Below are positions 4,682-37,416 of a stretch of DNA of 37,496 nucleotides, in pieces. The stretch spans positions 1 through 37,496 of the forward strand of contig JABJFC010000049.1 of NCBI GenBank assembly GCA_018662925.1, written 5' to 3'. This stretch comes from Alphaproteobacteria bacterium. Lineage in GTDB: Bacteria > Pseudomonadota > Alphaproteobacteria > 16-39-46 > JABJFC01. The notes under the pieces were generated by a model. That model was not told the origin of the DNA, did no database searches, and saw nothing but the letters and a program-made list of their open reading frames with translations. Position numbers and translations under genes: made by a program. Within the stretch, counting starts at the first letter, position 1. Each line of letters begins with the position of its first letter.

Positions 4682-4725
4682 GTTTAAAATAGCGTCTTAA
4701 TGTGTATGGTTTAAAAGTTTTCAGA

Positions 4726-4776
4726 AGTCTTGGTGATTTTCACCCAGACTGCGGCAGCCGTGGTGAAGCGGCGTTT
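4726..4776 (+). promoter_or_regulatory. Untranslated leader with hairpin and ops-like element, candidate antitermination site
   Basis: AGTCT (4726-4730) pairs with AGACT (4746-4750), and GGTGA (4732-4736) with TCACC (4740-4744). This gives a ten-pair stem with one mismatch and a TTT loop. No T-tract follows, so it is not an intrinsic terminator. Directly abutting it is GCGGCAGC (4751-4758), then CGTGG. This resembles the E. coli ops core GGCGGTAGCGTG, with one substitution and one inserted base. GCCG (4757-4760) can also pair with CGGC (4769-4772), followed by GTTTT. The position between the NusG paralogue and its presumed target operon fits a recruitment site. The identification rests on resemblance and position only. 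Confidence 0.5.
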
Positions 4777-4808
4777 TCCAAGAAATGACACTCAAGAGGA
4801 ATCCATAA

Positions 4809-5969
4809 ATGACAACAAATTATGCCTTAAAATCGAAGCCAGCCCTTCAGGCAATTCCTTTTATTGATCTGAAGACACAGCAATCGCGTATTCGCCCTCA
4901 AATTGATGCCGCTATTCAGCGGGTATTGGATCATGGAATGTATGCCATGGGTCCAGAAGTATTTGAGTTGGAAAAGGCGTTGTCGGATTTTTGTGGGGCT
5001 AAGAATGTTATTTCCTGTTCAAGTGGGACCGATGCTTTAGCGCTGATCTTAAGAGCAAAAGAAATCAGACCGGGAGATGCGGTTTTTGTTCCCAGCTTTA
5101 CTTTTGTTGCGACGGCGGAAGTTGTGACATGGTTTGGAGCGACACCTGTATTCGTGGATGTCCTGCCTGATACGTTTAATATGGACCCTGACAGTTTGAA
5201 GCAAGGCATCCAGGCGGCAAAGAAAAATGGTCTCACGCCAAAGGGCATCATTCCTGTGGGTCTTTTTGGTCAGCCGGCTGATTATGAGCCAATCGAGGCC
5301 ATTGCTGATGAGAATGGCTTGTGGGTCTTAGATGATACGGCCCAGTGTTTTGGCGCTACCTATAAAGGGCGTAAATGTGGAACAATTGGAGATGCAACAG
5401 CGACGAGTTTCTTTCCGGCCAAGCCTTTAGGATGTTATGGCGATGGGGGAGCTATCTTTACGGATAACGATGAGTTTGCCGAAATTTTAAGAAGCATGCG
5501 GATTCATGGCCAAGGGATCAACAAGTATGAAAATGTTCGTATTGGGATAACGGGTCGTCTAGATACCATCCAAGCCGCTATTTTACTTGAGAAGTTAAAA
5601 ATCTTTCCCGAAGAATTGAAACAACGCCAACGAGTTGCAGATACCTATAACGAGGCTCTTAGAGATGTGGTTCAGGTCCCAGATTTGTTGGAAGGAACCA
5701 CTTCTATTTGGGCTCAGTATACCGTTGTGCTGCAAGGGCAAGATCGTGATAAAGTTGTTGCAAATCTTAAAGCATTAGGGATTCCGACGGCTATTTATTA
5801 TCCTATTCCTCTTCATCTTCAAAAGGCCTACGATAAATTCTTGCGGGCGACAGACTCTCTTTCGGTAAGCGAAAGTCTCTCACACAAAGTACTCAGTTTG
5901 CCCATGCATCCGTATTTAGAGGAATCTGATCAATCGAGAATCATTGAGGGGGTTAGGGCCTCCCTTTAA
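4809..5969 (+). CDS. DegT/DnrJ/EryC1 sugar aminotransferase, WbpE/WlbC-like
   Basis: This PLP-dependent enzyme of 386 residues should transfer an amino group, usually from glutamate, to a keto-sugar nucleotide. The PLP lysine is K205 in FFPAKPLG, followed by CYGDGGAIFT. SCSSGTDALALIL and DDTAQCFGATY complete the fold-type I signature. The motif set is closest to the WbpE/WlbC branch, which makes UDP-2-acetamido-3-amino-uronic acid. Partner WbpA/WbpB/WbpD-type genes are not in the window, so the exact substrate is open. A uronic acid product would fit the two AsnB-like amidotransferases nearby. AGAGGAAT precedes the ATG. It is the first gene after the leader and the next gene starts five bases after its stop. 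Confidence 0.85.
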   Translation: MTTNYALKSKPALQAIPFIDLKTQQSRIRPQIDAAIQRVLDHGMYAMGPEVFELEKALSDFCGAKNVISCSSGTDALALILRAKEIRPGDAVFVPSFTFVATAEVVTWFGATPVFVDVLPDTFNMDPDSLKQGIQAAKKNGLTPKGIIPVGLFGQPADYEPIEAIADENGLWVLDDTAQCFGATYKGRKCGTIGDATATSFFPAKPLGCYGDGGAIFTDNDEFAEILRSMRIHGQGINKYENVRIGITGRLDTIQAAILLEKLKIFPEELKQRQRVADTYNEALRDVVQVPDLLEGTTSIWAQYTVVLQGQDRDKVVANLKALGIPTAIYYPIPLHLQKAYDKFLRATDSLSVSESLSHKVLSLPMHPYLEESDQSRIIEGVRASL

Positions 5970-5973
5970 TACC

Positions 5974-17180: not shown

Positions 17181-18031
17181 CTCTTGGAACAGCACAGTTG
17201 GGATCTGCCTATGGGGTCACAAACGTAACGGGGCAGCCCTCTAAGAGCGACTCCTATGGCATTCTAGATCTGGCAGTGCAATCAGGAATGGATACTATTG
17301 ATACAGCCGTGGGTTATGGAAAAGCTCAAGATGTCGTCGCGGATTGGTTCAAGGGATCAGACTCACAGGTAAGAATCATTTCTAAAATATGCATCAAGAA
17401 TGGTTTGGAGCATTTTGAAAAATCCTTTTGGAAAATGTATGAGCTGTTTGGGAGTCGACCCATATATGGTCTTTTGGTGCATGATCCAGAGAATTTCAAC
17501 ACCCTAAAACATAAAGAATTTGTTGATATGGTTCATAGTTTCAAAGAGAAAGGGTGCCTTCAGAAGTTTGGGGTATCTGTCTATGATCCAGAAACAGTCG
17601 AGTCTCTTTCAGGGTGGTTGTCATTGGATATCGTTCAATGCCCTGTAAATATTTTGGATCAGCGGTTCATTCAAGAGGATATGAAAGAAATTTACGCAAA
17701 GCATCATATAGAAGTATATGCACGCTCATTATTTCTTCAGGGAGTGCTCCTTGCTGAAAAGTTGCCTTTAGGTCTTTCAAACTTGGAGCCAAGTTGGAAT
17801 CGATTTCAGTCTATGTGTAAAAATGAAAACCTAACGCCGTTACAAATGTGCCTCCTTTTTGCTAAAGCTAGCTCGAGCGTAAGCAAGTGGGTTATTGGTG
17901 TGAATTTAGCCACGGAGCTGTCGGGTATTATGGATTGCTGGAAAAGTTTACCCAATCAAATTCCAAATTACGACCTGCTTCAGTGTGAAAACGTTGTGCA
18001 TGTGGATCCAAGGAACTGGGCAGTTCAATGA
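17171..18031 (+). CDS. Aldo/keto reductase family oxidoreductase
   Basis: This 286-residue TIM-barrel NADPH-dependent oxidoreductase has the AKR catalytic tetrad: D44 and Y49 in DTAVGYG, K72 in ISKICIK and H104 in LLVHDPEN. It starts MRLALGTAQLGSAYGV, as in AKRs found inside sugar-biosynthesis loci. Canonical pseudaminic acid synthesis needs no such step. Together with the class III aminotransferase encoded next, it suggests an extra oxidation/reduction and amination on the sugar. It overlaps pseC by ten bases and the next gene by four. Confidence 0.82.
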   Translation: MRLALGTAQLGSAYGVTNVTGQPSKSDSYGILDLAVQSGMDTIDTAVGYGKAQDVVADWFKGSDSQVRIISKICIKNGLEHFEKSFWKMYELFGSRPIYGLLVHDPENFNTLKHKEFVDMVHSFKEKGCLQKFGVSVYDPETVESLSGWLSLDIVQCPVNILDQRFIQEDMKEIYAKHHIEVYARSLFLQGVLLAEKLPLGLSNLEPSWNRFQSMCKNENLTPLQMCLLFAKASSSVSKWVIGVNLATELSGIMDCWKSLPNQIPNYDLLQCENVVHVDPRNWAVQ

Positions 18032-20043
18032 AGAAAGTTGCCATTATTCAGGCCCGGATGGGATCGACTAGATTTCCAGGAAAAGTCTTGAAAGAATTAG
18101 CTGGAAAGCCACTTCTTGAGTGGATAGTAACAAGATCAAAAGAGATCCCGCTTATTGATCAGGTCGTTGTTGCGACGTCTGATCAGGAGTCAGATTTGCC
18201 TATTGTTCAATGGTGTAAGGAGCATAAAGTTGAGTGCTTTAGAGGGAATGAACATGATGTCTTAGATAGATACTATAATGCTGCGCAGAAAATGAAGGCA
18301 GATGTAATTATTCGGATTACAGCTGACTGCCCATTTTTGGATCCGAACGTGGCTGGGCAGGTTTTATCTCTTGTGGCATTGGGGCATGCTGACTACGCTT
18401 CAAATATACTACCAGTGACTTGGCCAGATGGATTGGATTGTGAAGCCTTTACCTTTTCCGCTCTTGAGTCTAGTCATCGGATGGCAGTCAAAAGGGCTGA
18501 TCGGGAGCATGTGACTTCATACATAAGAAATAACCAAGCAAAATTTAAAGTGCTCAATTTGTCTTGCCCACTTCCGGATTTGGGGAAATATCGTTGGACA
18601 ATCGATACGTCTCAGGATTTGGAATACCTTGAAACCATCTGCAAAAAGGTAGGGAAAGATTTTAGCAGTTACGTGGAGCTGCTCTCAGTTTTGGGAAATG
18701 AGAAGCAACCCTCCATGAACAGAAATGAGGGGTACGCTAAATCTATCAGAGATGAAAAAACTGTTTGTTCAACCTTTACGGAATCAGATGCAGCGCTTAA
18801 AAGATCCTTAAAGGTCATTCCTCTGGGGAGCCAGACTTTTAGCAAGTCGCACATCCAGTATCCAAAACGATCACCCTTATTTTTGAGTCATGGGATGGGG
18901 GGGCGCGTTTGGGATGTTGATGGAAATGAATATGTAGATTTAGTAAGTGGATTGCTTCCAAGTATTCTAGGCTATTCGGACCCTGATGTTAACTACGCAA
19001 TTCAAGAACAGCTGCAGAAGGGAATAACTTTCAGCCTGGCGACTTCCTTGGAAATTGAACTAGCAGAAAAACTTTGCAGGATTATTCCTTCTGCTGAACA
19101 GGTTCGTTTTTCGAAAAATGGTTCTGACGTGACGTCTGCAGCTATTAGATTGGCGAGGGCTTATACACAGCGGGATAAAGTAGTGACTTGTGGGTATCAT
19201 GGTTGGCATGATTGGTACGTGGGAACGACAACACGTGATATGGGCGTTCCAAAATCTGTTTCTGAATTAACCGTATCGGTTCCCTTTAATGATATTGATA
19301 GGTTTGAAACACTCTTAAAGACTGAAGAATATGCCAGCGTAATTATAGAGCCTTGTAACATGTACAAGCCTCAAGAAGGATTTCTTCAAACGTTAAAAGT
19401 TTTATGCGAAAGATATGGAACTCTCCTTGTTTTTGATGAGATTATTACAGGGTTTCGTATGTCCTTGGGGGGGGCTCAAGAGTACTTCGATGTAACGCCA
19501 CACATATCTTGTTTTGGGAAAGCCATGGGGAATGGAATGCCCATTTCTGCCATTGTGGGAAGTAAGAAAATAATGAAGAGTATGGAAGACATTTTCTTTT
19601 CGGGAACGTTTGGCGGGGAAACTATTTCTATTGCGGCTGCTTTAGCGACAATCAACGTCATTGAAAAGAAGAATGTTATAGGACATTTGTGGGATTTTGG
19701 TCAGCGGCTTTCGGGGGATGCTCAACAAAAGATAAAGAAATACGGTCTTTCGGATGCTATTCAATTTTGTGGATATGCTCCTTGGAAAATCATCAAATTC
19801 AGTGATGTAGGTCAACATAGTTCCCATCATATAAAGACATACTTTATGCAAGAAATGATCAAACATGGGGTTCTGATCAATAGTAGTCATAATATTTGCT
19901 ACCCCCACGATGCTGAAGATTTTCAGGCTGTTTTGGATGCCTATGAAGTAACGCTTGAGTCTTTAAGTTCTCATTTAAAAAACAATAAGTTATCAACTTC
20001 AATTACTGGGCCTGTCGTCGAGCCAGTTTTTAGCGTCAGATGA
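18028..20043 (+). CDS. Fusion: SpsF/PseF-like cytidylyltransferase + class III aminotransferase
   Basis: This 671-residue two-enzyme protein has an N-terminal domain (about 1-240) of the CMP-sugar cytidylyltransferase type. AIIQARMGSTRFPGKVL, RGNEHDVLDRYY and RITADCPFLDP are typical of SpsF/PseF, which activate a nonulosonic acid with CTP. The C-terminal domain (about 255-650) resembles glutamate-1-semialdehyde aminotransferase, with DVDGNEYVDLVSG, FSKNGSDVTSAAIRLAR, VFDEIITGFR and PLP lysine K498 in CFGKAMGNGMP. No separate pseF is present, so the N-terminal domain probably makes the CMP-sugar. The aminotransferase substrate is unknown. The reading frame is continuous, with a linker of about 15-20 residues, so this looks like a true fusion. 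It overlaps both neighbours by four bases. Confidence 0.85.
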   Translation: MKKVAIIQARMGSTRFPGKVLKELAGKPLLEWIVTRSKEIPLIDQVVVATSDQESDLPIVQWCKEHKVECFRGNEHDVLDRYYNAAQKMKADVIIRITADCPFLDPNVAGQVLSLVALGHADYASNILPVTWPDGLDCEAFTFSALESSHRMAVKRADREHVTSYIRNNQAKFKVLNLSCPLPDLGKYRWTIDTSQDLEYLETICKKVGKDFSSYVELLSVLGNEKQPSMNRNEGYAKSIRDEKTVCSTFTESDAALKRSLKVIPLGSQTFSKSHIQYPKRSPLFLSHGMGGRVWDVDGNEYVDLVSGLLPSILGYSDPDVNYAIQEQLQKGITFSLATSLEIELAEKLCRIIPSAEQVRFSKNGSDVTSAAIRLARAYTQRDKVVTCGYHGWHDWYVGTTTRDMGVPKSVSELTVSVPFNDIDRFETLLKTEEYASVIIEPCNMYKPQEGFLQTLKVLCERYGTLLVFDEIITGFRMSLGGAQEYFDVTPHISCFGKAMGNGMPISAIVGSKKIMKSMEDIFFSGTFGGETISIAAALATINVIEKKNVIGHLWDFGQRLSGDAQQKIKKYGLSDAIQFCGYAPWKIIKFSDVGQHSSHHIKTYFMQEMIKHGVLINSSHNICYPHDAEDFQAVLDAYEVTLESLSSHLKNNKLSTSITGPVVEPVFSVR

Positions 20044-21461
20044 ATAAAACAATGAATTCTCCTCGCGCCATTTTCCGATGTGATGCTTCTGAACAGTTAG
20101 GAGCAGGCCATGTTATGCGCTGTATTGTTTTGGCAGAAGCACTGAAAGAGAAGGGCTGGGAATGCTTTTTTGTTTCAAATAAGGAAGCGCATACGCTTAT
20201 ATCTAAACTCAAGGAATTCAAAGCCGTTGATCCGGTGGAACTTTACGATTCTCCAATTTTTCACAATTTATTGATTGTTGATCACTATGAACTTGATAAA
20301 AGTTATGAACAACATTTTAGAAAACATGCTGACAAAATTTTGGTAATTGATGATCTCGCAAATCGGGAACATGATTGCGACATACTTATTGATCAAACCT
20401 ATGGGAGGGATGCTACAGATTATAATGGGTTCGTTCCAGAGAAATGCAAGATTCTGACTGGAAGTAAATACTCTCTTATAAAAAGACAGATTTCTGAATT
20501 AAGGCCAAAGAGTTTTCTATCAAGAAAGAACAGGAATTCAATAAAAAAAATCTTGATATCTATGGGGGGAACAGATCCACAAAATTATACTTTGAAGGCC
20601 TTGAAAATGGTTAAAGAGTCTGGGTTCAGGGGAAGTATAGATGTGGTTCTGGGCTTTTCGTCAAAGTACGAAGAAATTATAAGTGATTTTACAAAGAGTA
20701 TGTCTAATTCAGTGGAAATATATGTTAATGCAGATATGCCAAAGTTGTTGAACCAGGCAGATTTAGCCATAGGAGCTTCCGGCAGCAGTATTTGGGAGAG
20801 ATGTTGCCTTGGGCTTCCATCTGTATTGGTTCAAACGGCAGCGAACCAGAAAAAAATATATGACACTCTTTGTGAGACTTTTTACCCAGGTAAGACCAAA
20901 GACATAGAATTTCTTTTTAACAAATGCTTAAACGATCCTACTTTTTTTCAGAAATTATCAAATACTGTAGCTCCTTTGATAGACGGATTTGGTGTAAATA
21001 GAGTGGTTGAAACTATTTTAAGTGAAGAGAGCCAGGTAGAGCTCGTTCCAGTTAAGTCGACAGATATGGAAAAAATTTTTCAATGGCAAGTAGAGCCCGA
21101 GTTAAGAAAGCATTTCAATAATCCGTCTCGACCATCACTTGAGGAACATAAAGAGTGGTTTACAAAGAAATTAAGTAATTCAATTGATCAGTATTGGCTC
21201 ATCCAATCTAAAAAGGATTCCTATGGGGCGCTAACACTTTCTTATGATGAGAATGATGACGATTTCGTTTTAAGTTGGTATCTTACAACCAGTGCTCAGG
21301 GCAAAGGCATTGGCACACAGGCTTTGAAGATTGCATGCAACCTGGTATATCCATTCAGGATTAAGGCTGTTGTAAATGATGAAAATGAAACTTCGCGAAA
21401 GTCTTTGCTAAAAGCAGGTTTTGAGAATGTTTCCAATGGGAGTTTTATTCTAAGAAAATGA
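20040..21461 (+). CDS. pseG: PseG-PseH fusion: UDP-sugar hydrolase + N-acetyltransferase
   Basis: This 473-residue protein carries two consecutive pathway enzymes. Residues 1 to about 325 form PseG, a GT-B-fold hydrolase that removes UDP from the diacetamido-trideoxy sugar. It has FRCDASEQLGAGHVMRC with the probable catalytic H24, and GASGSSIWERCCLGLPS from residue 245. Residues about 333-473 form a GNAT domain, PseH, that acetylates the 4-amino group. The acetyl-CoA loop is SAQGKGIGTQAL and the end is NETSRKSLLKAGFENV. Canonical enzymes are separate, and in the pathway PseH acts before PseG. A fusion would channel the intermediate. ATG 20040 overlaps the previous TGA by four bases, and a second ATG at 20052 is possible. 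Confidence 0.9.
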   Translation: MNKTMNSPRAIFRCDASEQLGAGHVMRCIVLAEALKEKGWECFFVSNKEAHTLISKLKEFKAVDPVELYDSPIFHNLLIVDHYELDKSYEQHFRKHADKILVIDDLANREHDCDILIDQTYGRDATDYNGFVPEKCKILTGSKYSLIKRQISELRPKSFLSRKNRNSIKKILISMGGTDPQNYTLKALKMVKESGFRGSIDVVLGFSSKYEEIISDFTKSMSNSVEIYVNADMPKLLNQADLAIGASGSSIWERCCLGLPSVLVQTAANQKKIYDTLCETFYPGKTKDIEFLFNKCLNDPTFFQKLSNTVAPLIDGFGVNRVVETILSEESQVELVPVKSTDMEKIFQWQVEPELRKHFNNPSRPSLEEHKEWFTKKLSNSIDQYWLIQSKKDSYGALTLSYDENDDDFVLSWYLTTSAQGKGIGTQALKIACNLVYPFRIKAVVNDENETSRKSLLKAGFENVSNGSFILRK

Positions 21462-22132
21462 CTTCTTATATTGTCTGCACCATAAAGCCTTGGAACTTAG
21501 ATTTGTACCATAAAGACCTGTCTAAGTTGCCCGGAAAGTGGCACTTAATCTCTAGCGCAGAAGAGTTAACATATTCTTTTTTAAAAGAGGCAAGTCCACG
21601 ATACGTATTTTTTCTTCACTGGAGTTGGATCGTTCCTGAAGACATAATTAAGGATTTTGAGTGCGTTTGCTTTCATTCGAGTGATGTTCCTTATGGTCGA
21701 GGGGGGAGCCCCATTCAGAATTTGATTATAAGAGGCCACAAAGATACAAAGATTACGGCACTTCGAATGCAAAATGAATTAGATGCTGGACCAGTTTATA
21801 TGAAGAGAAATTTATCTTTGCTCGGAAGGGCTCAGGATATATTTGTGCGTTCTACCAAGATTATATGTTCCATGATAAAAGAATTGACTCAAACTAATCC
21901 TGTGCCGGTTTCTCAACAAGGAGAACCTGTCATTTTTAAACGTCGAAAGGGGAAGGATAACGAAGTTCCTCAAAACGAGAATTTAGAGGTAATATACGAT
22001 CACATCCGTATGTTGGATGCTGAGACATATCCCCGTTCTCATATAATCTACGGAAATATGAAGATCGAATTTTCTGAGCCTGAGAAAAGTGATGATCACA
22101 TAACAGCCCAAGTAAGGATTACAAGAGTATGA
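21458..22132 (+). CDS. Formyltransferase-family protein, probable sugar N-formyltransferase
   Basis: This 224-residue protein is related to the catalytic domain of methionyl-tRNA formyltransferase. The core is FHSSDVPYGRGGSPIQNLI with H73, and LDAGPVYMK with D109. The 36-residue His-Asp spacing equals that of E. coli Fmt (H108, D144). The third Fmt catalytic residue, an Asn two before the His, is replaced here by C71. It lacks the tRNA-binding C-terminal domain of Fmt, and its length suits sugar formyltransferases that use 10-formyl-THF to formylate amino sugars. It is overlapped by four bases on both sides, between pseGH and a PIG-L deacetylase. N-formylation of the nonulosonic acid or its precursor is the likely role. 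Confidence 0.78.
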   Translation: MTSYIVCTIKPWNLDLYHKDLSKLPGKWHLISSAEELTYSFLKEASPRYVFFLHWSWIVPEDIIKDFECVCFHSSDVPYGRGGSPIQNLIIRGHKDTKITALRMQNELDAGPVYMKRNLSLLGRAQDIFVRSTKIICSMIKELTQTNPVPVSQQGEPVIFKRRKGKDNEVPQNENLEVIYDHIRMLDAETYPRSHIIYGNMKIEFSEPEKSDDHITAQVRITRV

Positions 22133-22803
22133 AGAAAATTGCTGTAATTTCTGCGCACCCTGATGATGAAGCTTTTGGTTGTGGTGGGACTTTGTTGAAG
22201 CACAAGTCAAAGGGAGACGAACTTTCTCTTTTGTTTATGACCGATGGGATCTCGGCTAGAAAAGACGCTTCTTCCAAAGAGACTTCAAAGCGAGAAAGCG
22301 ATCTTAGGACAGCTATGGCGTGTCTGAATCCAAAACATTTTGAAAGGCTTAATTTCCCAGATAACAAACTTGATTCAGTGCCACTTTTAGATATTGTCCA
22401 GGAAATTGAGACTTTTTTGCAAAAGGTAAAACCTGACATAATTTATACTCATTTTTGGAATGACTTAAATATTGATCATTCCTTAACGGCCAAGGCAACC
22501 TTGACTGCAACACGACCTGGAAGTCCGACATCTGTAAAGAAAATTTTGGCCTATGAAGTTCCTTCAAGTACTGAGTGGCAGATTGAAGATGAACCATTTA
22601 GGCCAAACTATTTTGTGGGAATTGAAAACCAGATCGATTCTAAAATTGAATTAATTAATTGCTATGAAACTGAAGTAAGACCATATCCCCATCCTAGGTC
22701 AATTGAGAATATCAAAGCACTAGGCCAAGTAAGGGGAGCGACAGTTTCAATCCCTTACGCAGAAGGATTCATATTGGTGAGGAGTATCGACGATGAAAAA
22801 TAA
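22129..22803 (+). CDS. PIG-L/LmbE-family deacetylase
   Basis: This 224-residue zinc-dependent N-deacetylase-like protein has the family motif AHPDDE at residues 9-14 near the N-terminus (MKKIAVISAHPDDEAFGCGG) and the second metal-binding His at about 117 (NDLNIDHSLTA). The family removes acetyl groups from GlcNAc-type or related amides. Flanked by a formyltransferase and pseI, it could strip an N-acetyl group so that a different acyl group can be added. It overlaps the upstream gene by four bases and pseI by eleven. The exact substrate is unproven. Confidence 0.85.
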   Translation: MKKIAVISAHPDDEAFGCGGTLLKHKSKGDELSLLFMTDGISARKDASSKETSKRESDLRTAMACLNPKHFERLNFPDNKLDSVPLLDIVQEIETFLQKVKPDIIYTHFWNDLNIDHSLTAKATLTATRPGSPTSVKKILAYEVPSSTEWQIEDEPFRPNYFVGIENQIDSKIELINCYETEVRPYPHPRSIENIKALGQVRGATVSIPYAEGFILVRSIDDEK

Positions 22804-23847: not shown

Positions 23848-24558
23848 ATGGTTCATAAGACTGAAAAGCACTATCAGCAGGAATATCTTTCTCTGGGGAT
23901 GTCGGCTCAGAGGAGTTATCCCAACGAAGAGCTGGCACGATTTTTAGGCCGCGAGTTTTTTAAGCTTTCGAAAGAAATCCGAAAAACTAAGAGAATATTA
24001 GAAGTTGGATGTGGAACGGGGGGTAACTTATGGTCCATTTCAAGGGAGGGATTTGATACCTATGGCTTGGATTTGTCTCAGGAAGCAATCAAACTCTGTC
24101 GGAAAAAACTAGAGGAAGAGGGGGGCGTTGCAGAACTTCAGGTCGCGTCTATGCTAGAGCTTCCTTATGAGGACAACTTTTTTGATTCTATTGTGGATGT
24201 TTTTTCAGGGTACTGTTTCCCCTATAAAGATTATACGAGTTTTATTACTGAGGTTAGTAGAACTTTGAAACCTGGTGGATTATTCTATTCATATGTCCCA
24301 TCCCAAGGGGCCCATGATTATTTAATAAGTACTGATGCTGAAAGATTGGATGATTGTACCCTTAAAGAAAATAATAATCCTGAAGCTATTTATCGGGGAC
24401 AAAAATATCCTTTTTTGTTTCTCACTAAGTCCTGTGTGGAAAAAGTTTTAGAGAGTGTCCCAGAGTTGGGCATCACTTATTTTGAGACTGTGTCAAAGTC
24501 TTATGAATTTGGCAGTAAAAAATTTGAATGGCTAAGTTATGTGCTCCGAAAAGATTAA
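23848..24558 (+). CDS. Class I SAM-dependent methyltransferase
   Basis: This 236-residue methyltransferase has a complete motif I, ILEVGCGTGGNLW, from residue 50, followed by YGLDLSQEAI, VASMLELPYEDNFFDSIVDVF and EVSRTLKPGGLFYSYVPS. The order is that of a Methyltransf_11/25 core. GGAGAG about eight bases before the ATG is a good ribosome-binding site. It follows pseI and overlaps the FemAB-like gene by 20 bases. It may O-methylate the nonulosonic acid or an adjacent sugar. The target is inferred from context only. Confidence 0.82.
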   Translation: MVHKTEKHYQQEYLSLGMSAQRSYPNEELARFLGREFFKLSKEIRKTKRILEVGCGTGGNLWSISREGFDTYGLDLSQEAIKLCRKKLEEEGGVAELQVASMLELPYEDNFFDSIVDVFSGYCFPYKDYTSFITEVSRTLKPGGLFYSYVPSQGAHDYLISTDAERLDDCTLKENNNPEAIYRGQKYPFLFLTKSCVEKVLESVPELGITYFETVSKSYEFGSKKFEWLSYVLRKD

Positions 24559-25450
24559 TAATAGTCGTTCCTTAGCCGAGTATTATCAAGAATACTATGG
24601 AGAAGAATTTCGTGATTTAACCTTTGAAATGTCTTTAGAGGATAGTTCGATCGTTTCTATCCCAAGCCACAAAATTGAACAAAAGCTGTGTTACAATAGC
24701 CAACCTTTACCCACAGATCTATTTTGTGATTCGAACGATATTTCCAAGAAAAGTGCAAAACTAATTGTCCAAAATTTAAAGCAGATTGCAAACTCGAAAG
24801 GTTGTTCAGAAATACTCTTAAGTGATAAGCTTTATGAGGGAAATCTGAGTACGATGAGTGCGGAATTGTTTAATCAGGAGGCTACTTATGAGCTTCTTTT
24901 TAATTTACATATAGATTTTCAAGATTTTACAGAAGCAAATTTTTTTAAGGGATTACGTAAGAGTTATAAATCACTGGTTAACTGGGGAAGGAAAAATCTA
25001 GTTGTGGATGTGGTAAATGCTCAAAATTATTCATACGATAAATTTATGAAATTTAAAGAATTTCATGCCTTAATATCTGGACGACAAACAAGATCCGACG
25101 AGAGTTGGGATATCCAAGCAGGGCTTTCTCAGAATGGGGGAGGAGAACTCATTCTAGCCTATTTAAATGATGAGCTTGTTGCAGGATCTTTCTTTTTAGA
25201 TGAATTCAAAAGATCGAGATATTTTAATGGAGTGTATCAAAGAGACTTATTTCACCTGGGGATAGCACACTATCCTGTTTATATGGGTATAGTGCGTTCT
25301 CAGATGAGAAATCCTCATGGATATTGTCACTTAGGATCGATCATGTCAGATAACGATGACAACAAACTAAAAAATATTGAGTTTTTCAAGAAAGGTTTTT
25401 GTCCTCGTTTAACACCTTCTATTGTTTGGAGGCTGTCATGTCAAAGTTGA
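24539..25450 (+). CDS. FemAB/GNAT-fold acyltransferase-like protein
   Basis: This 303-residue protein resembles the FemAB-like GNAT proteins seen in glycan loci. The C-terminal half has a basic helix (FFKGLRKSYKSLVNWGRK), then KFKEFHALISGRQTRSDESW, a beta-strand pair (LILAYLNDELVAGSFFLDE) and GIAHYPVYMGI, which fit a GNAT acyl-CoA or aminoacyl transfer fold. The N-terminal half is not recognisable. A role in N-acylating an amino sugar with a larger or amino-acid group is possible. It overlaps the upstream gene by 20 bases and the next by 13. The family assignment is moderate and no catalytic residue can be named. Confidence 0.55.
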   Translation: MCSEKINNSRSLAEYYQEYYGEEFRDLTFEMSLEDSSIVSIPSHKIEQKLCYNSQPLPTDLFCDSNDISKKSAKLIVQNLKQIANSKGCSEILLSDKLYEGNLSTMSAELFNQEATYELLFNLHIDFQDFTEANFFKGLRKSYKSLVNWGRKNLVVDVVNAQNYSYDKFMKFKEFHALISGRQTRSDESWDIQAGLSQNGGGELILAYLNDELVAGSFFLDEFKRSRYFNGVYQRDLFHLGIAHYPVYMGIVRSQMRNPHGYCHLGSIMSDNDDNKLKNIEFFKKGFCPRLTPSIVWRLSCQS

Positions 25451-26940
25451 GTGGGAAGAACATCCTAATTTTCCAACAGCGTCAATGGGGCTTTACAATA
25501 GGGGCATCCTTAGCCAAAAAATTTCAAGAGGAACAAAATCATTTATTTGCGATAACTATGAAAAACACGGCTTTTGAATATGTAACGACTCAAAAAGATG
25601 TGAAGTATGAGAAAATCTTTAACTACGATGATATTATTTATACGCCGTTATCTTATGAAGTTCCAAAAGATTTAACGTTGGAGACTATCTGTAAGGGATT
25701 GGGAATTGCTACCGTATGGCCGCTTGTTAGTTGTGTGCGAAAGCTTACAAAAAATTATGGAGAGAAATTTTATTATAGTTTTAGAAAGCGTGCCTCCGAT
25801 GAATACATTATTGCATACATCAAGTCTGTTTATACTTTTTTGAAGGACATTTTAATTAATAATAAAATTGACTTAGTTATTATGCCTGTCCACGCTTCTT
25901 TTGTTCACGTGGTTGCAAATTTACTCTGTAAACAGAACAACATAAAAATTGTTTCTGTCACAGATTCAAAAGTTGAAGGTGTCTTCTTGTTTGCGAATGA
26001 TACATTTTTTCGAGAAGGGGAGTTCTTTAATGTTTTAGAGAGAGAGCAACACTTTCATCTGGAAAAAGTAGAGCAACACTTAAAAAAAGAAAAAAAGAAG
26101 AATGAAAAGGAATTTATAAAACTTAAAAGAGAATATTCTTCTGTGGGTGATTTTTTTTTAAAAGAAATGAAGTTCTTCTATTCATTAATCTTATTGCTTA
26201 AAAAGTTTGCATTTAACTATACGAAAGCAGTAAATACGCTTGGCCCAGATATAGATTTCCCTACACCCTATACGATGGTGAGAGATCATTTTGTTTATAA
26301 ATATCAGAGGTGGAAAACGCGTAAATATACAGGCTATTCAGAATTTAATGATAATAAGAAGTATGTATACTTTCCTCTCCAATTTCAGCCAGAAGCACAG
26401 ATAGACTTATTTTCGCCATATTTTAATAACCAAATTGAAACGGCTAGGCTGGTTGCTCAATCTTTACCTGGTAGTTTGTGTTTAGTCGTTAAAGAACACC
26501 CAGCTATGATCGGCTATAGAGGTGTGAGCTATTACGAAAAGCTTTTGGGCTTACCAAACGTAAAATTAATTAGACCGGACTATAATGGTCATTATCTTAT
26601 TTCAAAAGCTGAAATGATTATTGCGCCTGTTAGCACGACTATTTTTGAAGGGGCAGTTTTCAACAAACCTGTTATCCAGCTAGGAAATTATGGTCTAACG
26701 GAAAAATTACCAGATGTACACGTCCACACAGATTTAACCTCCTTACCTCAGAAGATATTAGATGTCTTAGAGAAAGGGTTCGACACGAAGTCTCACGAAT
26801 CACATCTTAAAAAATGGATAGGGGCGGTATATGAGACAGGCTTCGAACTTGACTATACAAAACTGTGGTACGATCAAGATAGTCGTCAGGAGTTGTTTGA
26901 TGAGTATTGGGAGCATCTTAAAAAGGAAGTCTGTCTTTAG
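25438..26940 (+). CDS. KpsS/KpsC-like capsule polysaccharide synthesis protein
   Basis: This 500-residue cytoplasmic protein has a C-terminal half with the Capsule_synth-type pattern: FPLQFQPEAQIDLFSPYFNNQ, LVVKEHPAMIGYR, SKAEMIIAPVSTTIFEGAVF and NKPVIQLGNYG. These are typical of GT-B-fold, CMP-sugar-dependent transferases related to KpsS and KpsC. The middle has a lysine-rich charged segment (LKKEKKKNEKEFIKLKRE), probably a coiled coil. ATG 25438 is chosen because GGAGG (25428-25432) is five bases upstream. An in-frame TTG at 25399 lies deep inside the preceding gene. As KpsS/C relatives use CMP-Kdo, this is a reasonable candidate for transferring the CMP-nonulosonic acid, but that is inference. 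Confidence 0.7.
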   Translation: MSKLSGKNILIFQQRQWGFTIGASLAKKFQEEQNHLFAITMKNTAFEYVTTQKDVKYEKIFNYDDIIYTPLSYEVPKDLTLETICKGLGIATVWPLVSCVRKLTKNYGEKFYYSFRKRASDEYIIAYIKSVYTFLKDILINNKIDLVIMPVHASFVHVVANLLCKQNNIKIVSVTDSKVEGVFLFANDTFFREGEFFNVLEREQHFHLEKVEQHLKKEKKKNEKEFIKLKREYSSVGDFFLKEMKFFYSLILLLKKFAFNYTKAVNTLGPDIDFPTPYTMVRDHFVYKYQRWKTRKYTGYSEFNDNKKYVYFPLQFQPEAQIDLFSPYFNNQIETARLVAQSLPGSLCLVVKEHPAMIGYRGVSYYEKLLGLPNVKLIRPDYNGHYLISKAEMIIAPVSTTIFEGAVFNKPVIQLGNYGLTEKLPDVHVHTDLTSLPQKILDVLEKGFDTKSHESHLKKWIGAVYETGFELDYTKLWYDQDSRQELFDEYWEHLKKEVCL

Positions 26941-26955
26941 GCCTATTTTTATAAT

Positions 26956-28215
26956 ATGCGAAAAGAATACACAAAATTTTTCAGGAAAATAAATTTAAAG
27001 TCCTGCCGTTACGTGGTTTTGACTCCTACTAGTGAGTTGGAGGGCACCAAAGAAATAGACTTATATGTCTGCAGGGAAGATAAAAGATTATTTTTGGAAA
27101 CTCTTTCAAAGGCTGGTTGGTTGCAAAGAGCAGATAAAAGTCATCTGCCTAATCATCATTTTTATTCCCAGGTATTAGGACCGGATATTCTTACTTTGGA
27201 TGTTAAATATGATCTGTCTTTCATACATGGGAAACGTAAGTACCAATATATTAATGAGAAATTATGTATAAAAAATAGAGAATTGGAACCTTCCTATAAG
27301 TTATTTGTACCCGCAATCCGGGATCAATTTTTGTTATTTTTAGCTCATGTTGCTTACATTGAAAGAGGTTTCTTAGAAAACAGACATGTTGAAAAATTAA
27401 AGGAATATTTAAACGTATTGAGCTCCATAAGGGAAAAAGATGAGTTAAAAACTTTAGTAGAAAAAATAAGTAAATTTTGTATTCCCAAAATAGATTTAGA
27501 GACCTTTTCTGGCGCGATAAGACCAACAATCAATTCATTCTTTAGTTTCAAAGAGCAGTCTGCATGCTCATTTGGGCGCATTTTTTTTCCTAGAAAATTT
27601 ATTTATGTGCTTTTTTTAGGAACAGATGGGAGTGGAAAGTCAACGACTATTGCCTCTTTGTGTTCCTACATGAACTGCAAAACATCTTGCATGTATATGG
27701 GTGAGAAAAACTGGGCACTTCCATTTGTAGGAGCCTTTTTTTCTAACTCTTCTTCTAGAGTTTGCAATATTCTGTACAGGTATTTTTTATACCCTTTAGA
27801 TTTGCTTTTAAGGAGACTTGTCCTCTGGAAAAATAACCCAGGGAGAAGGCTGATTCTTATTGATAGATTTCCTGGATTTCCTTTTTTTGATGTGGAGAAG
27901 AAGGGTTTTTTAGGAGTTTTGCTGAACTTTATATATAAGTTAGTTCTACCTTCCCCTGAGATGGTAGTGTTCCTACATGGTGATGCAGAGGAAATTTCTC
28001 AAAGGCAGCAGGAGGAATCTGTTAATTTTACCAAAAGGAATCAGGATAAATTTTTGGCTGTGGCGAAACACATTGGTAAAAAGAAGCTCGTAGTGGCTAA
28101 TACAACTGAAAATTCTAGTAAGGAAGTTGTTGATATTGTAGCAAAAAATATTTTTGAGGATACAAGTTTTATTAAAAATTGCTTTAGGCCGATTTCCTTT
28201 AGGCAATATAAATGA
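26956..28215 (+). CDS. Nucleotidyltransferase-like domain fused to a P-loop (thymidylate kinase-like) kinase
   Basis: In this 419-residue protein the first 190 residues resemble a nucleotidyltransferase-fold protein (TPTSELEGTKEIDLYVCRED, with the acidic pair expected near residues 35-37). The C-terminal part, from about residue 215, is a P-loop kinase with LFLGTDGSGKSTTIASL (Walker A at about 222-229), a DRF motif (LILIDRFPGFPFFD) and VVFLHGDAEEISQRQ near the lid. This matches thymidylate-kinase-like proteins of polysaccharide loci rather than true Tmk. The small molecule it phosphorylates is unknown. It starts 15 bases after the capsule-like gene and overlaps the APH-fold kinase gene by four bases. 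Confidence 0.7.
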   Translation: MRKEYTKFFRKINLKSCRYVVLTPTSELEGTKEIDLYVCREDKRLFLETLSKAGWLQRADKSHLPNHHFYSQVLGPDILTLDVKYDLSFIHGKRKYQYINEKLCIKNRELEPSYKLFVPAIRDQFLLFLAHVAYIERGFLENRHVEKLKEYLNVLSSIREKDELKTLVEKISKFCIPKIDLETFSGAIRPTINSFFSFKEQSACSFGRIFFPRKFIYVLFLGTDGSGKSTTIASLCSYMNCKTSCMYMGEKNWALPFVGAFFSNSSSRVCNILYRYFLYPLDLLLRRLVLWKNNPGRRLILIDRFPGFPFFDVEKKGFLGVLLNFIYKLVLPSPEMVVFLHGDAEEISQRQQEESVNFTKRNQDKFLAVAKHIGKKKLVVANTTENSSKEVVDIVAKNIFEDTSFIKNCFRPISFRQYK

Positions 28216-28949
28216 TACAAAATAAATACAAAATTTCGTTATCGCATGGAAGTAACACACTCATTTTCTCAAGTGGAAAAGCTGTGTGTAAAATGCCATA
28301 TAAATTCAATAGTGCTAAAAACCTGCGGATCGAACACAAAAAAACAATTTTAGCTTCTCAAGATCATTTTTTTGCTTCCTATGTGAATCCAGCGAGTCTG
28401 AAGCTTGGGGGTGCTTTAAAGTCATGTCAACTGTTTGCCCCCACGGCTGAGGAAATTCAGAAACTGAGAAGTTCGATTCTACAAAGATCCGAGGAACAGA
28501 CTCCTTCTTTGCCTTTTTATAAAACTTTCTCTGATAATTTTATAGCGTTTTTAGGACAGTTTGGCAGCACTTTTGTCGAAAAATTAATGGCAACGAATAT
28601 TCCTGTATCTTCTATTCATGGAGATTTACATATAGAAAATATTTTTTCTAAGGATAATGAGACAAAGATTATAGATTGGAGGAACTACTCACAAGAATTT
28701 TGGAATAGCTACGATTGTGTTCACTTCGAACTTATGGGGTATATTTATAACAGCAACGTGAACAGTTGGTTCCAAGCTGTGCAGGAATTCCATGGAGAAC
28801 GGCTCCTTACAAAAAATTCGAGGGTTTTATACGCTGTCTCGAGATGTTTCTTTGAGTATGATGCAGATGTAGTTCTTGGAAGGTTAACTTCCAAGAGAAA
28901 AGAGAAATATGCGGAGATTTTACGTTGGTGTGAGCATAATGGACTCTAG
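28212..28949 (+). CDS. APH/choline-kinase-fold phosphotransferase
   Basis: This 245-residue protein has the kinase catalytic loop HGDLHIEN at residues 136-143 and a metal-binding Asp in KIIDWRNYS, the two strongest signatures of the aminoglycoside phosphotransferase/choline kinase superfamily. The N-lobe is short and divergent (SHGSNTLIF, KAVCKMPYK). Such proteins phosphorylate small alcohols or sugars, as LicA phosphorylates choline. Coupled by ATGA to the P-loop kinase gene, it may act with it on one substituent. No licC or licD homologue is visible, so phosphocholine is not supported. Confidence 0.68.
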   Translation: MIQNKYKISLSHGSNTLIFSSGKAVCKMPYKFNSAKNLRIEHKKTILASQDHFFASYVNPASLKLGGALKSCQLFAPTAEEIQKLRSSILQRSEEQTPSLPFYKTFSDNFIAFLGQFGSTFVEKLMATNIPVSSIHGDLHIENIFSKDNETKIIDWRNYSQEFWNSYDCVHFELMGYIYNSNVNSWFQAVQEFHGERLLTKNSRVLYAVSRCFFEYDADVVLGRLTSKRKEKYAEILRWCEHNGL

Positions 28950-29631
28950 TTTTGCAGCTATTTTGAACTATCACGAGATAAAGTGTGAAAAGGTGTTTAA
29001 TTTTCAAATACAAAACCTTACAAGGATAGGGCGTTTTTCTAACATTTCCTCTATACTAGAGAGGAAAGAGGAGACCTTCGGAGATAATCAACGCCCTGAT
29101 TTATTACTTACTTTTGATGATGGATACGATTCACAGTATGAGGTTGCCCAGAACATTCTTTCCCAGCAAGAAATACCAGCAATCTTCTTTATCGTCACAA
29201 ATTGGGTTGGTAGAAAAGGTTATATGACATGGCAACAGCTACGAGAGCTAGTAGAATATAGGCAATTTTCTATTGGATCCCATACGGTGAACCATCCAAA
29301 CTTAATAAACCTGAGTGATAAAGATTTAGATCATGAGCTTTCTTACTCTAAGTCTACTATCGAAGATAAGTTGGGAACATCTTGTGGTTTATTCGCAATC
29401 CCATTTGGAAAAAAAACCAAGCATTATACTTCGGCGGTCTTAGAAAAAATAGGAGCCTACTATCCAATATGTTTTGCAAATAATAGGGGCTACTATCATA
29501 ACTCTTCTAAGAATCATTTAGAAATTCCACGTATTGTTCCTCCAGACACGAAGTTTAGTTATTTGTTTCAAAAGCTTGTGCTTAATCAAGATTTAACTTT
29601 TGCCGATAAGTTTCTTTTGAGACTATTTTAG
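28939..29631 (+). CDS. Polysaccharide deacetylase (CE4, NodB-homology)
   Basis: This 230-residue protein has a NodB-type domain with motif 1 TFDDGYD at residues 58-64 (catalytic base and metal Asp) and motif 2 SHTVNHPN, with zinc ligands H115 and H119. The remaining motifs are less clear. It removes N- or O-acetyl groups from sugars. No signal peptide is seen, so it probably acts in the cytoplasm on a lipid-linked or nucleotide-linked intermediate. ATG 28939 gives an 11-base overlap with the preceding gene. ATG 28909 would overlap by 41 bases and is less likely. Confidence 0.78.
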   Translation: MDSSFAAILNYHEIKCEKVFNFQIQNLTRIGRFSNISSILERKEETFGDNQRPDLLLTFDDGYDSQYEVAQNILSQQEIPAIFFIVTNWVGRKGYMTWQQLRELVEYRQFSIGSHTVNHPNLINLSDKDLDHELSYSKSTIEDKLGTSCGLFAIPFGKKTKHYTSAVLEKIGAYYPICFANNRGYYHNSSKNHLEIPRIVPPDTKFSYLFQKLVLNQDLTFADKFLLRLF

Positions 29632-29641
29632 GAGTAAGCCC

Positions 29642-30391
29642 TTGTTTTCTGTAATTATTCCCACGTGTGATCGTTTTATTTCTCTAAGAAATGCAGTGGA
29701 ATCTGTAACAAGGCAAACATACGAAGTGAGTGAAATTATTATTGTAAATAATGGGCGTGAAAAAATTGATAAGGAAAATTTTTCTCTTATCAAAAAATAT
29801 TCTGAAAAATTGAAAATTATTAATATTGAACCATACGTCGGAGTATCAAAAGCGCGTAATTGTGGTGCAAATATAGCTTCAGGAAAATACCTAGCCTTTT
29901 TAGATGACGACGATCAATGGCCTGAGAATTACATAGAAATAGCAAATGACCATATTTCTGATGTGGATAGGGATTGTTTTATTAGTGATATACGAATGTA
30001 CAAAAATAATAAAATAGTGGCTGAAAAAATAAATAAGTATGAAAATTTTAATAAATATAATCTATTTATAAGAAACCCCGGGTTTGGTGGAAGTAATATT
30101 ATAATAAAAAAGAATGCTTTTATGTTAGTTAATGGCTATAACGAAAAACTAACAACGAGTGAAGATAAAGCCTTGTTAATAGAACTTCTAAGGGTGAAAG
30201 CCTCTCTTTTTATTGTTCCAAATAACTATATACGTGCTTCTACTGATGATAGTTTAAGTTTGACGAGAAATACTTGGCGGCAAATATCTGGTATTTTTAG
30301 ATTTATCATTGTATACAGGAAAGAAATGAGCTTTGCTCATGTATATGCTAACTTGATAAAGTGCTTGAAGTTGCTCAGGAAAACCATTTAG
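29642..30391 (+). CDS. Family 2 (GT-A) glycosyltransferase, TTG start
   Basis: This 249-residue GT2 enzyme starts FSVIIPTCDRFISLRNAVES. The nucleotide-binding VNNGR region follows, with ARNCGANIASGKYLAFLDDDDQW and DDDD at residues 88-91 as the donor/metal motif. The start codon is TTG. It is accepted because AGGAG (29630-29634) lies seven bases upstream and the conserved fold begins right at this codon. The DNA is very AT-rich: I count 8 G/C in the 60 bases 30001-30060. The donor and acceptor are unknown. Confidence 0.83.
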   Translation: MFSVIIPTCDRFISLRNAVESVTRQTYEVSEIIIVNNGREKIDKENFSLIKKYSEKLKIINIEPYVGVSKARNCGANIASGKYLAFLDDDDQWPENYIEIANDHISDVDRDCFISDIRMYKNNKIVAEKINKYENFNKYNLFIRNPGFGGSNIIIKKNAFMLVNGYNEKLTTSEDKALLIELLRVKASLFIVPNNYIRASTDDSLSLTRNTWRQISGIFRFIIVYRKEMSFAHVYANLIKCLKLLRKTI

Positions 30392-30406: not shown

Positions 30407-31180
30407 ATGCCATTAAAGAAGTTGTATGTGGGTTGCGGGAACGAAAGGTTATCTGATTTCGTTCATAGTGATATTAGTGAGTTAAAGAATAAGAACGGTG
30501 CGCCAGACTTCCTGTGTGATATTGCAGAAAGTATTCCAATGCAAAGTGAGAGTGTAAATTTTGTGTACACTAAGGGCACTTTAGATATGCTGAATTATGT
30601 ACAAATTAGAAATGCTCTCATTAACATGAATCGTATCTTGGCCACTAAAGGTTTTTTGAGAATTGTGGTGTTTGATTTCGATAAGGCGATAAAGTCTTAC
30701 CTTTCAAAAGAGGTTCGAGAGAGTGGGGACTATGGGAGAGACTTTGCTCATTTGCCAGTTTTTTGTCACAATACGAGTTTAGTGAGTAGATTGTACTATC
30801 CTGGAAGGCGTTATCTCTTAAACTACCAGATACTTGAAAAATTATTGAAAGAAGCGGGGTTTGATAATATCAAGTTATACTCTCCCGGTGAGACAGGATT
30901 TCCTGACAATAAAAATCTTTCTACGCAGTTAGAGCATACGGAAAAACAAAAATCTTCAGACAGTATGATAGTTGAATGCACGAAGTCGTCTTCGAAACCG
31001 GAGTATACATACGCTAAGCTAGGCTTGCCCGAGGGGAAGATAAACCGAATCTTGGCTCAATATTTCAACCTTACTGTTTCTCCCTATAAAATAACGGACC
31101 CTGTCTTTCCCAAAAAGGGGTGGTTTTTGAAGAACTTACTTGGTGTGAAAAAAAAGCAGCTCCCTAAAAAGAGAGCCTAG
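30407..31180 (+). CDS. Methyltransferase-like protein, last gene of the glycan locus
   Basis: This 257-residue protein opens with a Rossmann-like SAM-binding start (KKLYVGCGNERLSDFVHSD) and has CDIAESIPMQSESVNFVYT and NMNRILATKGFLRIVVFD, resembling Methyltransf_11 enzymes. The C-terminus is basic (LGVKKKQLPKKRA). AAAGGA upstream supports the ATG. The 3' end overlaps a terminator hairpin that serves the convergent gene. It closes the plus-strand glycan operon. Alternatively it is a non-catalytic relative, since the motif after the GCG loop is divergent. Confidence 0.68.
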   Translation: MPLKKLYVGCGNERLSDFVHSDISELKNKNGAPDFLCDIAESIPMQSESVNFVYTKGTLDMLNYVQIRNALINMNRILATKGFLRIVVFDFDKAIKSYLSKEVRESGDYGRDFAHLPVFCHNTSLVSRLYYPGRRYLLNYQILEKLLKEAGFDNIKLYSPGETGFPDNKNLSTQLEHTEKQKSSDSMIVECTKSSSKPEYTYAKLGLPEGKINRILAQYFNLTVSPYKITDPVFPKKGWFLKNLLGVKKKQLPKKRA

Positions 31181-36342: not shown

Positions 36343-37416
36343 TTATCCTGCGAAAACGACTTGGCGCTCCAAGAAGGTAAGCCGTTTCATGTTGTAGACC
36401 AAATTCGCCAACCCCACCTTCACGCGGGCACGCTCTATACCGATGGTGCGAACAAAGAGGTCCATCTTATCCTTTTGAACCGCAAACACATGCTCCACAT
36501 GGGCACGGATTGACGCTCGCTTCTTGTTTCCTTTTTTCACATTCTTTGACATCGCTTTTCCACGGGGCTTCTTGAGGCATATCTCACTCCTCAGCCCTTT
36601 TGTTTCCAACAAGTCCCTGTTCTTCTTCGACCCATAGGCCGTATCTGCATACACTGGGCTTGCCGTATTGTCTGGATCCAGCAATTCTTCAAACACATGA
36701 CCATCATACATATTTGCCGCTGTCACTTCGAAGCGACGAATCAATCCATGGCGTTTATCTGTTGAGATATGGTTCTTATACCCAAATTGAGGTATAGCTA
36801 TATCGATGGCGTTCTCGCCAGCCTTCATCTTTGCTTTCTTATACTTCATGATCCAACGAGCATCCAAATCTTTTTGGGACAATTTATGGGGCTTATCCTT
36901 CCAATCTTCAGGAACCTTTCCTTCTTTAATGGTGTCTTTTTCTTCTTTCGTATTCTGCTGGCGTGGGGCTTTCACTATGGTTGCATCAATGATCTGTCCT
37001 GACATCGCCAAATAACCTTTGTTCTTCAGTTCCTGATCAAACTTGCGAAAGATCTTGTCCATGAGTTTGTGCTTTTTGAAGCGTTCTCTCCATAGCCAGA
37101 TAGTCTTGGCATCTGGAACTTTATCTCCTAATGAGAGACCTAAAAATCTCTGAAATGAAAGCCGATCCTTAATTTGGAATTCCAGCTGTTCATCAGAGAT
37201 GTTGTAGAGCGTCTGAAGAATGAGGATCTTGAACATTATAACTGAATCCCATGGAGGCCGACCGCCCTTCCTAGACACAATAAACGCAATGGAGCGGTTG
37301 ATGGTCTTTCTGAATTGCTCAAAGTCCACCACCTCTGAGAGTTTTTCTAAAGGATCACCAAACTCAGATAGCGCTTCCAATCTATTCTCAACATCAAAAA
37401 ATCCTGGCTGTGACAT
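36343..37416 (-). CDS. IS5-family DDE transposase
   Basis: This 357-residue transposase has an intact DDE triad: D144 (QIIDATIV), D258 (VYADTAYG) and E308 (RAHVEHVFA). The N-terminal part (DSVIMFKILILQTLYNISDEQ, FLGLSLGDKVPDAKTIWLWR) is the IS5-type domain. No frameshift is present, so the element looks potentially active. GGAGGG seven bases before the ATG is a strong ribosome-binding site. The C-terminal sequence ends 121 bases from the left inverted repeat. Confidence 0.93.
   Translation of the reverse strand: MSQPGFFDVENRLEALSEFGDPLEKLSEVVDFEQFRKTINRSIAFIVSRKGGRPPWDSVIMFKILILQTLYNISDEQLEFQIKDRLSFQRFLGLSLGDKVPDAKTIWLWRERFKKHKLMDKIFRKFDQELKNKGYLAMSGQIIDATIVKAPRQQNTKEEKDTIKEGKVPEDWKDKPHKLSQKDLDARWIMKYKKAKMKAGENAIDIAIPQFGYKNHISTDKRHGLIRRFEVTAANMYDGHVFEELLDPDNTASPVYADTAYGSKKNRDLLETKGLRSEICLKKPRGKAMSKNVKKGNKKRASIRAHVEHVFAVQKDKMDLFVRTIGIERARVKVGLANLVYNMKRLTFLERQVVFAG

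Follow-up and report, generated by a model that had tools for sequence, protein, structure and literature searches.

The window analysed here, a stretch of 37,496 nucleotides from an alphaproteobacterium that makes up one entire contig (JABJFC010000049.1), contains a two-gene kinase cassette within a glycan locus. The first gene encodes a nucleotidyltransferase-like (NTase) domain fused to a P-loop kinase with the thymidylate kinase (TMPK) fold, and the second encodes a kinase with the APH/choline kinase fold. These two proteins, the NTase-TMPK protein and the APH kinase, are the conserved core of the stretch. The cassette probably serves to place phosphate groups on the sugar coat. That it does so by phosphorylating a glycan building block or a lipid-linked repeat unit in the cytoplasm, adding a phosphoryl substituent before export, is a reading to which we give an even chance. 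The cassette and its immediate neighbours are as follows.

25438–26940, + strand, KpsS/KpsC-like (Capsule_synth) glycosyltransferase, by Pfam and a PDB match to KpsC
26956–28215, + strand, 419-residue fusion of an NTase-like domain (about residues 1–195) and a TMPK-fold P-loop kinase (about residues 214–406)
28212–28949, + strand, APH/choline-kinase-fold kinase, a lone protein of 245 residues
28939–29631, + strand, CE4 polysaccharide deacetylase, accessory, with an alternative ATG at 28909
29642–30391, + strand, GT2 glycosyltransferase (Pfam), directly after the cassette

The original prediction had described four packed genes at 25438–29631 as one kinase module, with two different kinase folds coupled by ATGA. 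The packing is confirmed, and the two coordinates are those of the first start and the last stop. An ATGA overlap at 28212–28215, read directly in the sequence, joins the NTase/P-loop and APH genes, and the two folds are backed by AlphaFold models. Taken from its ATG at 28939, the CE4 gene shares 11 nucleotides with the end of the APH gene; from its ATG at 25438, the KpsS/C-like gene shares 13 with the gene upstream. The grouping of all four genes as a module is not supported: the NTase-TMPK/APH pair is the conserved core, whereas the KpsS/C-like gene has a likely role of its own and CE4 is found in a minority of loci. In a crude hydropathy scan, neither kinase, nor the CE4 or GT2 protein, shows a strong membrane segment (maximum 1.46), which fits a cytoplasmic site of work for the kinases. 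The same scan gave one more hydrophobic stretch, at 1.86, in the KpsS/C-like protein.

Folds and conserved residues of the two kinases

The NTase/P-loop protein scores below the Pfam cut-offs for both of its domains, with 20.7 for Thymidylate_kin (cut-off 27) and 19.9 for NTP_transf_5 (cut-off 31.2). When its relatives are included, NTP_transf_5 is matched by 15 of 31 full proteins at E 0.01 and by 7 of 17 isolated domains at E 0.05. Residue conservation was assessed in an alignment of the window protein with relatives from 30 of the 48 loci treated below, from which P-loop-only proteins and very long frames were left out. The following motifs were located.

27052–27060, + strand, E33-I34-D35, metal motif of the NTase-like domain (D35 in 31 of 31 rows, D or E at position 33 in 30 of 31)
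27199–27201, + strand, D82, third acid of the NTase-like domain (30 of 31 rows)
27619–27642, + strand, Walker A loop GTDGSGKS, residues 222–229 (G222, D224, G225, G227 and K228 invariant in 31 of 31)
27862–27867, + strand, D303-R304, DR motif of the TMPK fold (31 of 31 rows)
28003–28014, LID motif, residues 350–353 (Q351 in the window)

The N-terminal domain is predicted, from sequence only, to be nucleotidyltransferase-like. The original prediction had named this domain, and its conservation was underplayed there. For the C-terminal domain, the motif GxDGxGK[ST], the DR pair and the LID arginine occur in all 31 aligned proteins, where R350 and E353 of the LID motif (R-K-x-E) are invariant. 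The structure model of the whole protein is confident (AlphaFold; pLDDT 89.9, pTM 0.85), and its C-terminal domain superimposes on thymidylate kinases with a Z score of 15.5 and a root mean square deviation of 3.4 over 174 aligned residues. The Foldseek and VIA lists for the whole model are filled by matches to the TMPK domain. The model confirms the predicted C-terminal domain as a P-loop kinase of the TMPK fold, and motifs and fold together place it in the thymidylate kinase superfamily. It does not score as a dTMP kinase, reaching 22.3 bits against the equivalog TIGR00041 (NCBIfam), for which the cut-off is 83.25.

The APH protein is also below the Pfam cut-offs (APH, 13.4 of 23.2, E 0.067; TCAD9, 19.6 of 40). 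In an alignment of 16 rows, residues K27, E41, H136, D138, N143, D155 and W156 are invariant. These supply the β3 lysine, the αC glutamate, the H-x-D-xxxx-N motif and the I-D-W residues of the APH/choline kinase superfamily, and the model shows the bilobal fold (AlphaFold; pLDDT 89.4). Its fold matches include fructosamine-3-kinase (FN3K, Z 11.9), LicA (Z 10.2) and a maltokinase (5jy7), the FN3K, LicA and APH enzymes together spanning Z 8.8–11.9. The model therefore confirms the predicted assignment of the 28212–28949 product as an APH/choline-kinase-fold kinase.

Recurrence of the kinase pair in other genomes

A P-loop profile scan of 84,980 species genomes with a narrow pattern matched 576 stretches, of which 48 were confirmed as loci; these are a sample. 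Among them are Salimicrobium, eight Pontibacter, Alphaproteobacteria, Patescibacteria, Verrucomicrobia, Actinobacteria and two archaeal records. Two contigs carry two locus names (L007/L036 and L008/L039), and each was counted once among the 48. The original prediction had named a failure of the two kinases to co-occur elsewhere as a refuting outcome. It is not refuted in this way: relatives of both are found together in distant phyla, in 36 of the 48 loci.

In these 36 loci an APH-fold open reading frame (ORF; frames were read stop to stop) lies beside, near or fused to the P-loop kinase at E < 1e-5. It is directly adjacent in 21 loci, further off with a gap of up to 2.2 kb in 12 and fused in 3, one of them doubtful; in 12 loci there is none. 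The doubtful fusion, L053, is a long high-GC frame and carries no weight here; overlaps with long frames are seen in L059 and L072 as well. All three domains, NTase, TMPK and APH, share one reading frame in L054 and L070, the APH part of L070 having been found by our own model and motif and not by Pfam. For the archaeal records, L042 has an APH ORF 1.9 kb away and L058 has none.

By a count with the hidden Markov model (HMM), 35 of 48 loci have the midpoint of an APH-fold ORF no more than 3 kb from the kinase; since neighbouring proteins went into the model, this count is biased. A motif-only count found 31 APH motifs within 3 kb (276 kb of sequence, 112 per Mb) and 3 beyond (523 kb), with a binomial p of 8.6e-12, or 1.1e-8 when one Pontibacter is kept; the motif was likewise written after the neighbours had been seen. 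Some of the DNA in the distant bins falls outside glycan loci and makes the ratio look better than it should; the bin from 3 to 6 kb (3 motifs in 239 kb) is the fairer control.

A Pfam census covered 111 neighbours from 33 of the 48 loci (seven of the eight Pontibacter and seven others were skipped, and L050 had no gene), using proteins of 150–700 residues and the best 25 of 77 families. Among the families listed, APH is the commonest that is not a glycosyltransferase (12 of 111). It is followed by Wzx-type transporters with 5, and by CE4, epimerase, methyltransferase, FemAB-like GNAT and sugar-type NTP_transferase with 3 each. The loci examined in detail (L007, L008, L025, L027, L033, L048 and L054) are glycan loci.

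Other searches covered narrower or different sets. In a phylum sample of 398 genomes, 11 match, and 5, including the window's own, carry the full NTase-TMPK fusion by profile model; an adjacent APH gene is clear in 3 of these (own included), marginal in 1 and absent in 1, with flanks of about 1.5 kb. A class-wide single-sequence search gave 6 of 385 genomes, namely the window's own, G127 and G104, plus three that were dropped as short or stop-containing. At E 1e-8 the APH subfamily of the window occurs in 2 of the 385 genomes of the class, in both beside a P-loop partner. Micavibrio G104, a member of the class with an NTase-P-loop fusion, has a more distant APH protein adjoining its own partner. 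The window kinase is absent from the other 3 genomes of the order, and tblastn with it gave no match to plasmids and phages and none to viral contigs.

Several variants of the arrangement were seen. L012 and L013 (G711 and G160) carry divergent pairs of stand-alone P-loop proteins of the window kinase's family that are too short for an NTase domain. In L016 (1742–3391) and L017 (1847–3325) the APH partner lies in a long frame whose N-terminal stretch has no Pfam match; that of L017 shows, by reading, a methyltransferase-like glycine-rich run. In L048, a glycan locus of Patescibacteria (Buchananbacteria), sulfate-activation genes of the CysD and CysN/CysC type lie between the KpsS/C-like gene and the kinase pair (4424–7163).

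The surrounding locus of the pseudaminic acid type

The genome has 1.83 Mb in 91 contigs and is 96.66% complete. The window encodes a pathway of the pseudaminic acid (Pse) type, for a surface sugar resembling sialic acid, in which PseB, PseC, PseG and PseI each score above the NCBIfam cut-off. Two proteins of the pathway are fusions.

18028–20043, cytidylyltransferase-like domain (PseF-type, by reading) followed by a glutamate-1-semialdehyde-aminomutase-like pyridoxal phosphate (PLP) enzyme
20040–21461, PseG and a PseH-like GNAT domain in one protein, with a homologue of similar length in L007

L007 is a second alphaproteobacterium in which the larger layout is alike. Identities to the window are 46% for the aminomutase-like domain, 58% for PseI, 29% for PseG/H, 32% for the KpsS/C-like protein, 26% for APH, 32% for GT2 and 28% for a small P-loop protein. 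In L007 the window kinase hit this separate small protein, but the large NTase-P-loop protein there gave no match at 1e-3. The PLP domain of L007 sits, by reading, behind an oxidoreductase-like domain instead. The PLP-domain fusions in the two loci suggest that the nonulosonate carries an unusual amino modification. Between PseG and PseI (21458–22803) lie genes for a formyltransferase-like protein and a PIG-L deacetylase, a hint of an N-formyl or de-acetylated nonulosonate. L048 has a PIG-L-like ORF, by reading, ahead of its KpsS/C-like gene.

PseI is followed by genes for a methyltransferase and a FemAB-like protein, and then by the KpsS/C-like, NTase/P-loop, APH and CE4 genes. Methyltransferase-like genes flank the cassette, a clear one at 23848–24558 and one below the Pfam cut-off at 30407–31180. 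Upstream in the window are an ABC exporter closest to PglK and MsbA and RfaH/MarR-type regulators, all with scores below the cut-offs. At the contig end, an ORF at 36343–37416 resembles, by reading, an IS5-type transposase, which is possibly the reason that the assembly stops there.

The KpsS/C-like protein matches Pfam Capsule_synth with 31.4 bits (cut-off 20, E 1.8e-07) and the PDB entry of KpsC, 6mgd, with E 7.4e-05. Homologues share a locus with the kinase pair in 4 of the 48 loci, L048 (E 2e-109), L036 (2e-82), L033 (1e-76) and L054 (2e-54). A PseI-like gene is present in L036 and L048, L033 holds WbuX and a WbuZ-like gene, and two ORFs of L054 match the window fusion protein in its cytidylyltransferase-like part. 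A member of the KpsS family, KpsS1 of Acinetobacter baumannii, is reported to be a retaining pseudaminyltransferase, GT118 (PMC12887879). The window protein resembles it in family, having the Capsule_synth domain, and in lying within a Pse locus. Because of this precedent, and because the homologues occur in loci with Pse/Wbu-type genes, the KpsS/C-like gene probably encodes the nonulosonate (pseudaminyl) transferase of the surrounding locus. It is placed outside the kinase core because no homologue was detected in the Salimicrobium and Pontibacter locus stretches searched.

The CE4 protein passes the Pfam cut-off for Polysacc_deac_1 (82.5 bits, cut-off 23.1, E 3.2e-23) and carries the TFDD and HTVNH metal motifs of its family. 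CE4 is an occasional companion of the kinase pair and not part of the core. A similar GT2 gene follows the kinase pair in L033, L036, L037 and the eight Pontibacter loci.

Proposed role of the cassette

A phosphorylating cassette is supported by the conserved catalytic residues, the two kinase folds and the recurrent pairing and fusion, and from its parts we infer a substrate, an order of steps and a product. APH-fold kinases phosphorylate hydroxyls, and the best-known relatives of the TMPK fold, the thymidylate kinases, phosphorylate a phosphate. The APH kinase would convert a hydroxyl (R-OH) to R-P, the TMPK-fold domain would convert R-P to R-PP or activate it otherwise, and the metal-binding NTase-like domain would move phosphoryl-R onto a sugar. 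In the window, it would be the locus's own pseudaminic-acid-type glycan that is decorated; the KpsS/C-like enzyme would add the nonulosonate, and CE4 may free an amine. Because the three domains are found fused or adjacent, they may well share a substrate or work in a single complex. The listed neighbours point to no particular small-molecule pathway, and the substrate may therefore be a common metabolite or the glycan. A precedent is ORF6-N of the Klebsiella pneumoniae O7 system, an APH/AmiN-fold kinase that phosphorylates the terminal rhamnose of the glycan before methylation (PMC11231755).

Several points weigh against this proposal. The window kinase has Q351 in the LID motif, whereas 28 of 31 rows have lysine. 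The glycine-rich first motif of nucleotidyltransferases is degenerate (L-T-P-T at residues 22–25 in the window), so the NTase-like domain may not use a nucleoside triphosphate, and a sequence search for a PDB relative of this domain gave none (best E 0.28). The 12 of 48 loci without an APH ORF imply that some relatives work without APH or with another kinase. The APH protein of G104 is out of reach at 1e-8, and the APH partners are therefore not one tight family. Finally, we know of no phosphorus measurement for the glycans of these loci.

The retention of the metal-binding acids together with the loss of the standard glycine-rich motif suggests a changed donor. Tentatively, and with the balance clearly against it, we propose a phosphodiester or pyrophosphate decoration that bypasses CDP-activated intermediates, in which APH would make R-P, TMPK would make R-PP and the NTase-fold domain would transfer phosphoryl-R. 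Cytidylyltransferase-type genes are rare beside the pair, the only such family among the listed census families being NTP_transferase (3 of 111).

Known systems resemble the cassette in part. In the LicA-LicC-LicD route, too, a glycan locus holds a choline-kinase-fold enzyme next to a transferase-type domain, and LicA is among the structural matches given above; the window differs in adding a TMPK-fold kinase and in that no LicD was found in its genome. The original prediction had reported no licC/licD or tagD-type gene, and for LicD this holds across the 96.66% complete genome, with 0 matches to PF04991, while 2 of 14 control genomes match. A LicD-type route is rejected on this ground. For the terminators ORF6-N of O7 and WbdD, the likeness lies in the APH/AmiN-fold kinase that acts on a glycan sugar in O7; in them this kinase forms one protein with a methyltransferase and has a coiled coil behind it, as part of ABC-transporter-dependent O-antigen assembly (PMC11231755), whereas the APH kinase of the window stands alone and is paired with the NTase-TMPK fusion. 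The window proteins do not form such a chain terminator, the APH kinase being a lone protein and the exporter being nearest to PglK/MsbA, below cut-off. The type A flagellin glycan of Clostridioides difficile (CD0241–CD0244) likewise has a phosphodiester-linked substituent made by a small gene set, comprising a phosphoserine-phosphatase-like protein, a CTP-using enzyme, a methyltransferase and a CDP-type phosphotransferase, none of which is described as a TMPK-fold or APH kinase in the available part of the source (PMC10714395).

Lasso peptide clusters pair NTP_transf_5 proteins with HprK-like kinases, again an NTase-fold protein with a kinase, but with peptide substrates and another kinase fold. 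No description of the NTase-TMPK/APH cassette was found in the open-access literature searched, most subscription journals being outside its scope, and the available parts of PMC6388019 and PMC4275268 contain nothing on the kinase pair.

Two alternatives would fit the same genes. In the first, which we hold to be unlikely, the glycan is only phosphorylated directly: APH acts on a sugar hydroxyl of the glycan while it is growing or lipid-linked, the TMPK-fold kinase acts on another position, the NTase-like domain only binds substrate and a methyltransferase may cap the phosphate. The O7 kinase and the methyltransferase-like genes on both sides of the cassette speak for this, but D35 is retained in all 31 aligned proteins and D82 in 30 of them, a conservation that binding alone would not need, and the exporter of the window is nearest to PglK and MsbA, below cut-off, not an O-antigen-type pair.

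The second alternative, a rather improbable one, is activated-sugar supply, with APH as an anomeric kinase, the NTase domain making an NDP-sugar and the TMPK-fold domain regenerating the nucleotide, all feeding the neighbouring GT2. NahK is an APH-type anomeric kinase, as is the maltokinase among the fold matches. GT2 is often near the pair, and no sugar-nucleotide gene was seen among the pair neighbours scanned in L025 (3) and L027 (6). Against it stand the degenerate glycine-rich motif and the fact that no single glycosyltransferase family is common to all loci; polymerase-beta-type nucleotidyltransferase domains are, to our knowledge, not known to make NDP-sugars.

Local recycling of CMP after nonulosonate transfer is very improbable. 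Nonulosonates are used as CMP sugars, and the kinase gene follows a putative transferase, for which the TMPK-fold domain would be the CMP kinase. The ground for rejecting it is that the pair is also present in loci with no nonulosonate gene detected: in L025, L027–L032, L034 and L035 the stretches searched had no match to the Pse proteins of the window. The APH partner would also be left unexplained. A chance cluster of unrelated genes or inactive relics is barely credible: four-base overlaps are common in compact operons and both kinases score below the Pfam cut-offs, but the fusions, the repeated pairing and the catalytic residues that stay invariant from phylum to phylum oppose it, and the co-occurrence counts largely refute it. 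Anti-phage defence is rejected, because nothing in PADLOC-DB was matched beyond weak P-loop similarity (0.0047 for the window protein, 0.00025 as the best value for a relative; 8 proteins).

Phosphate substituents influence how bacterial surface glycans are charged and recognised, and the kinase genes of glycan loci often go unassigned. The NTase-TMPK-APH cassette offers a genetically defined target in named isolates (Pontibacter, Salimicrobium). If the CDP-free route were true, it would represent a three-domain machine common to Bacillota, Bacteroidota, Pseudomonadota, Patescibacteria and others, with at least one archaeal record. If phosphorylation by the cassette is confirmed, phosphorylated glycans would become predictable from sequence.

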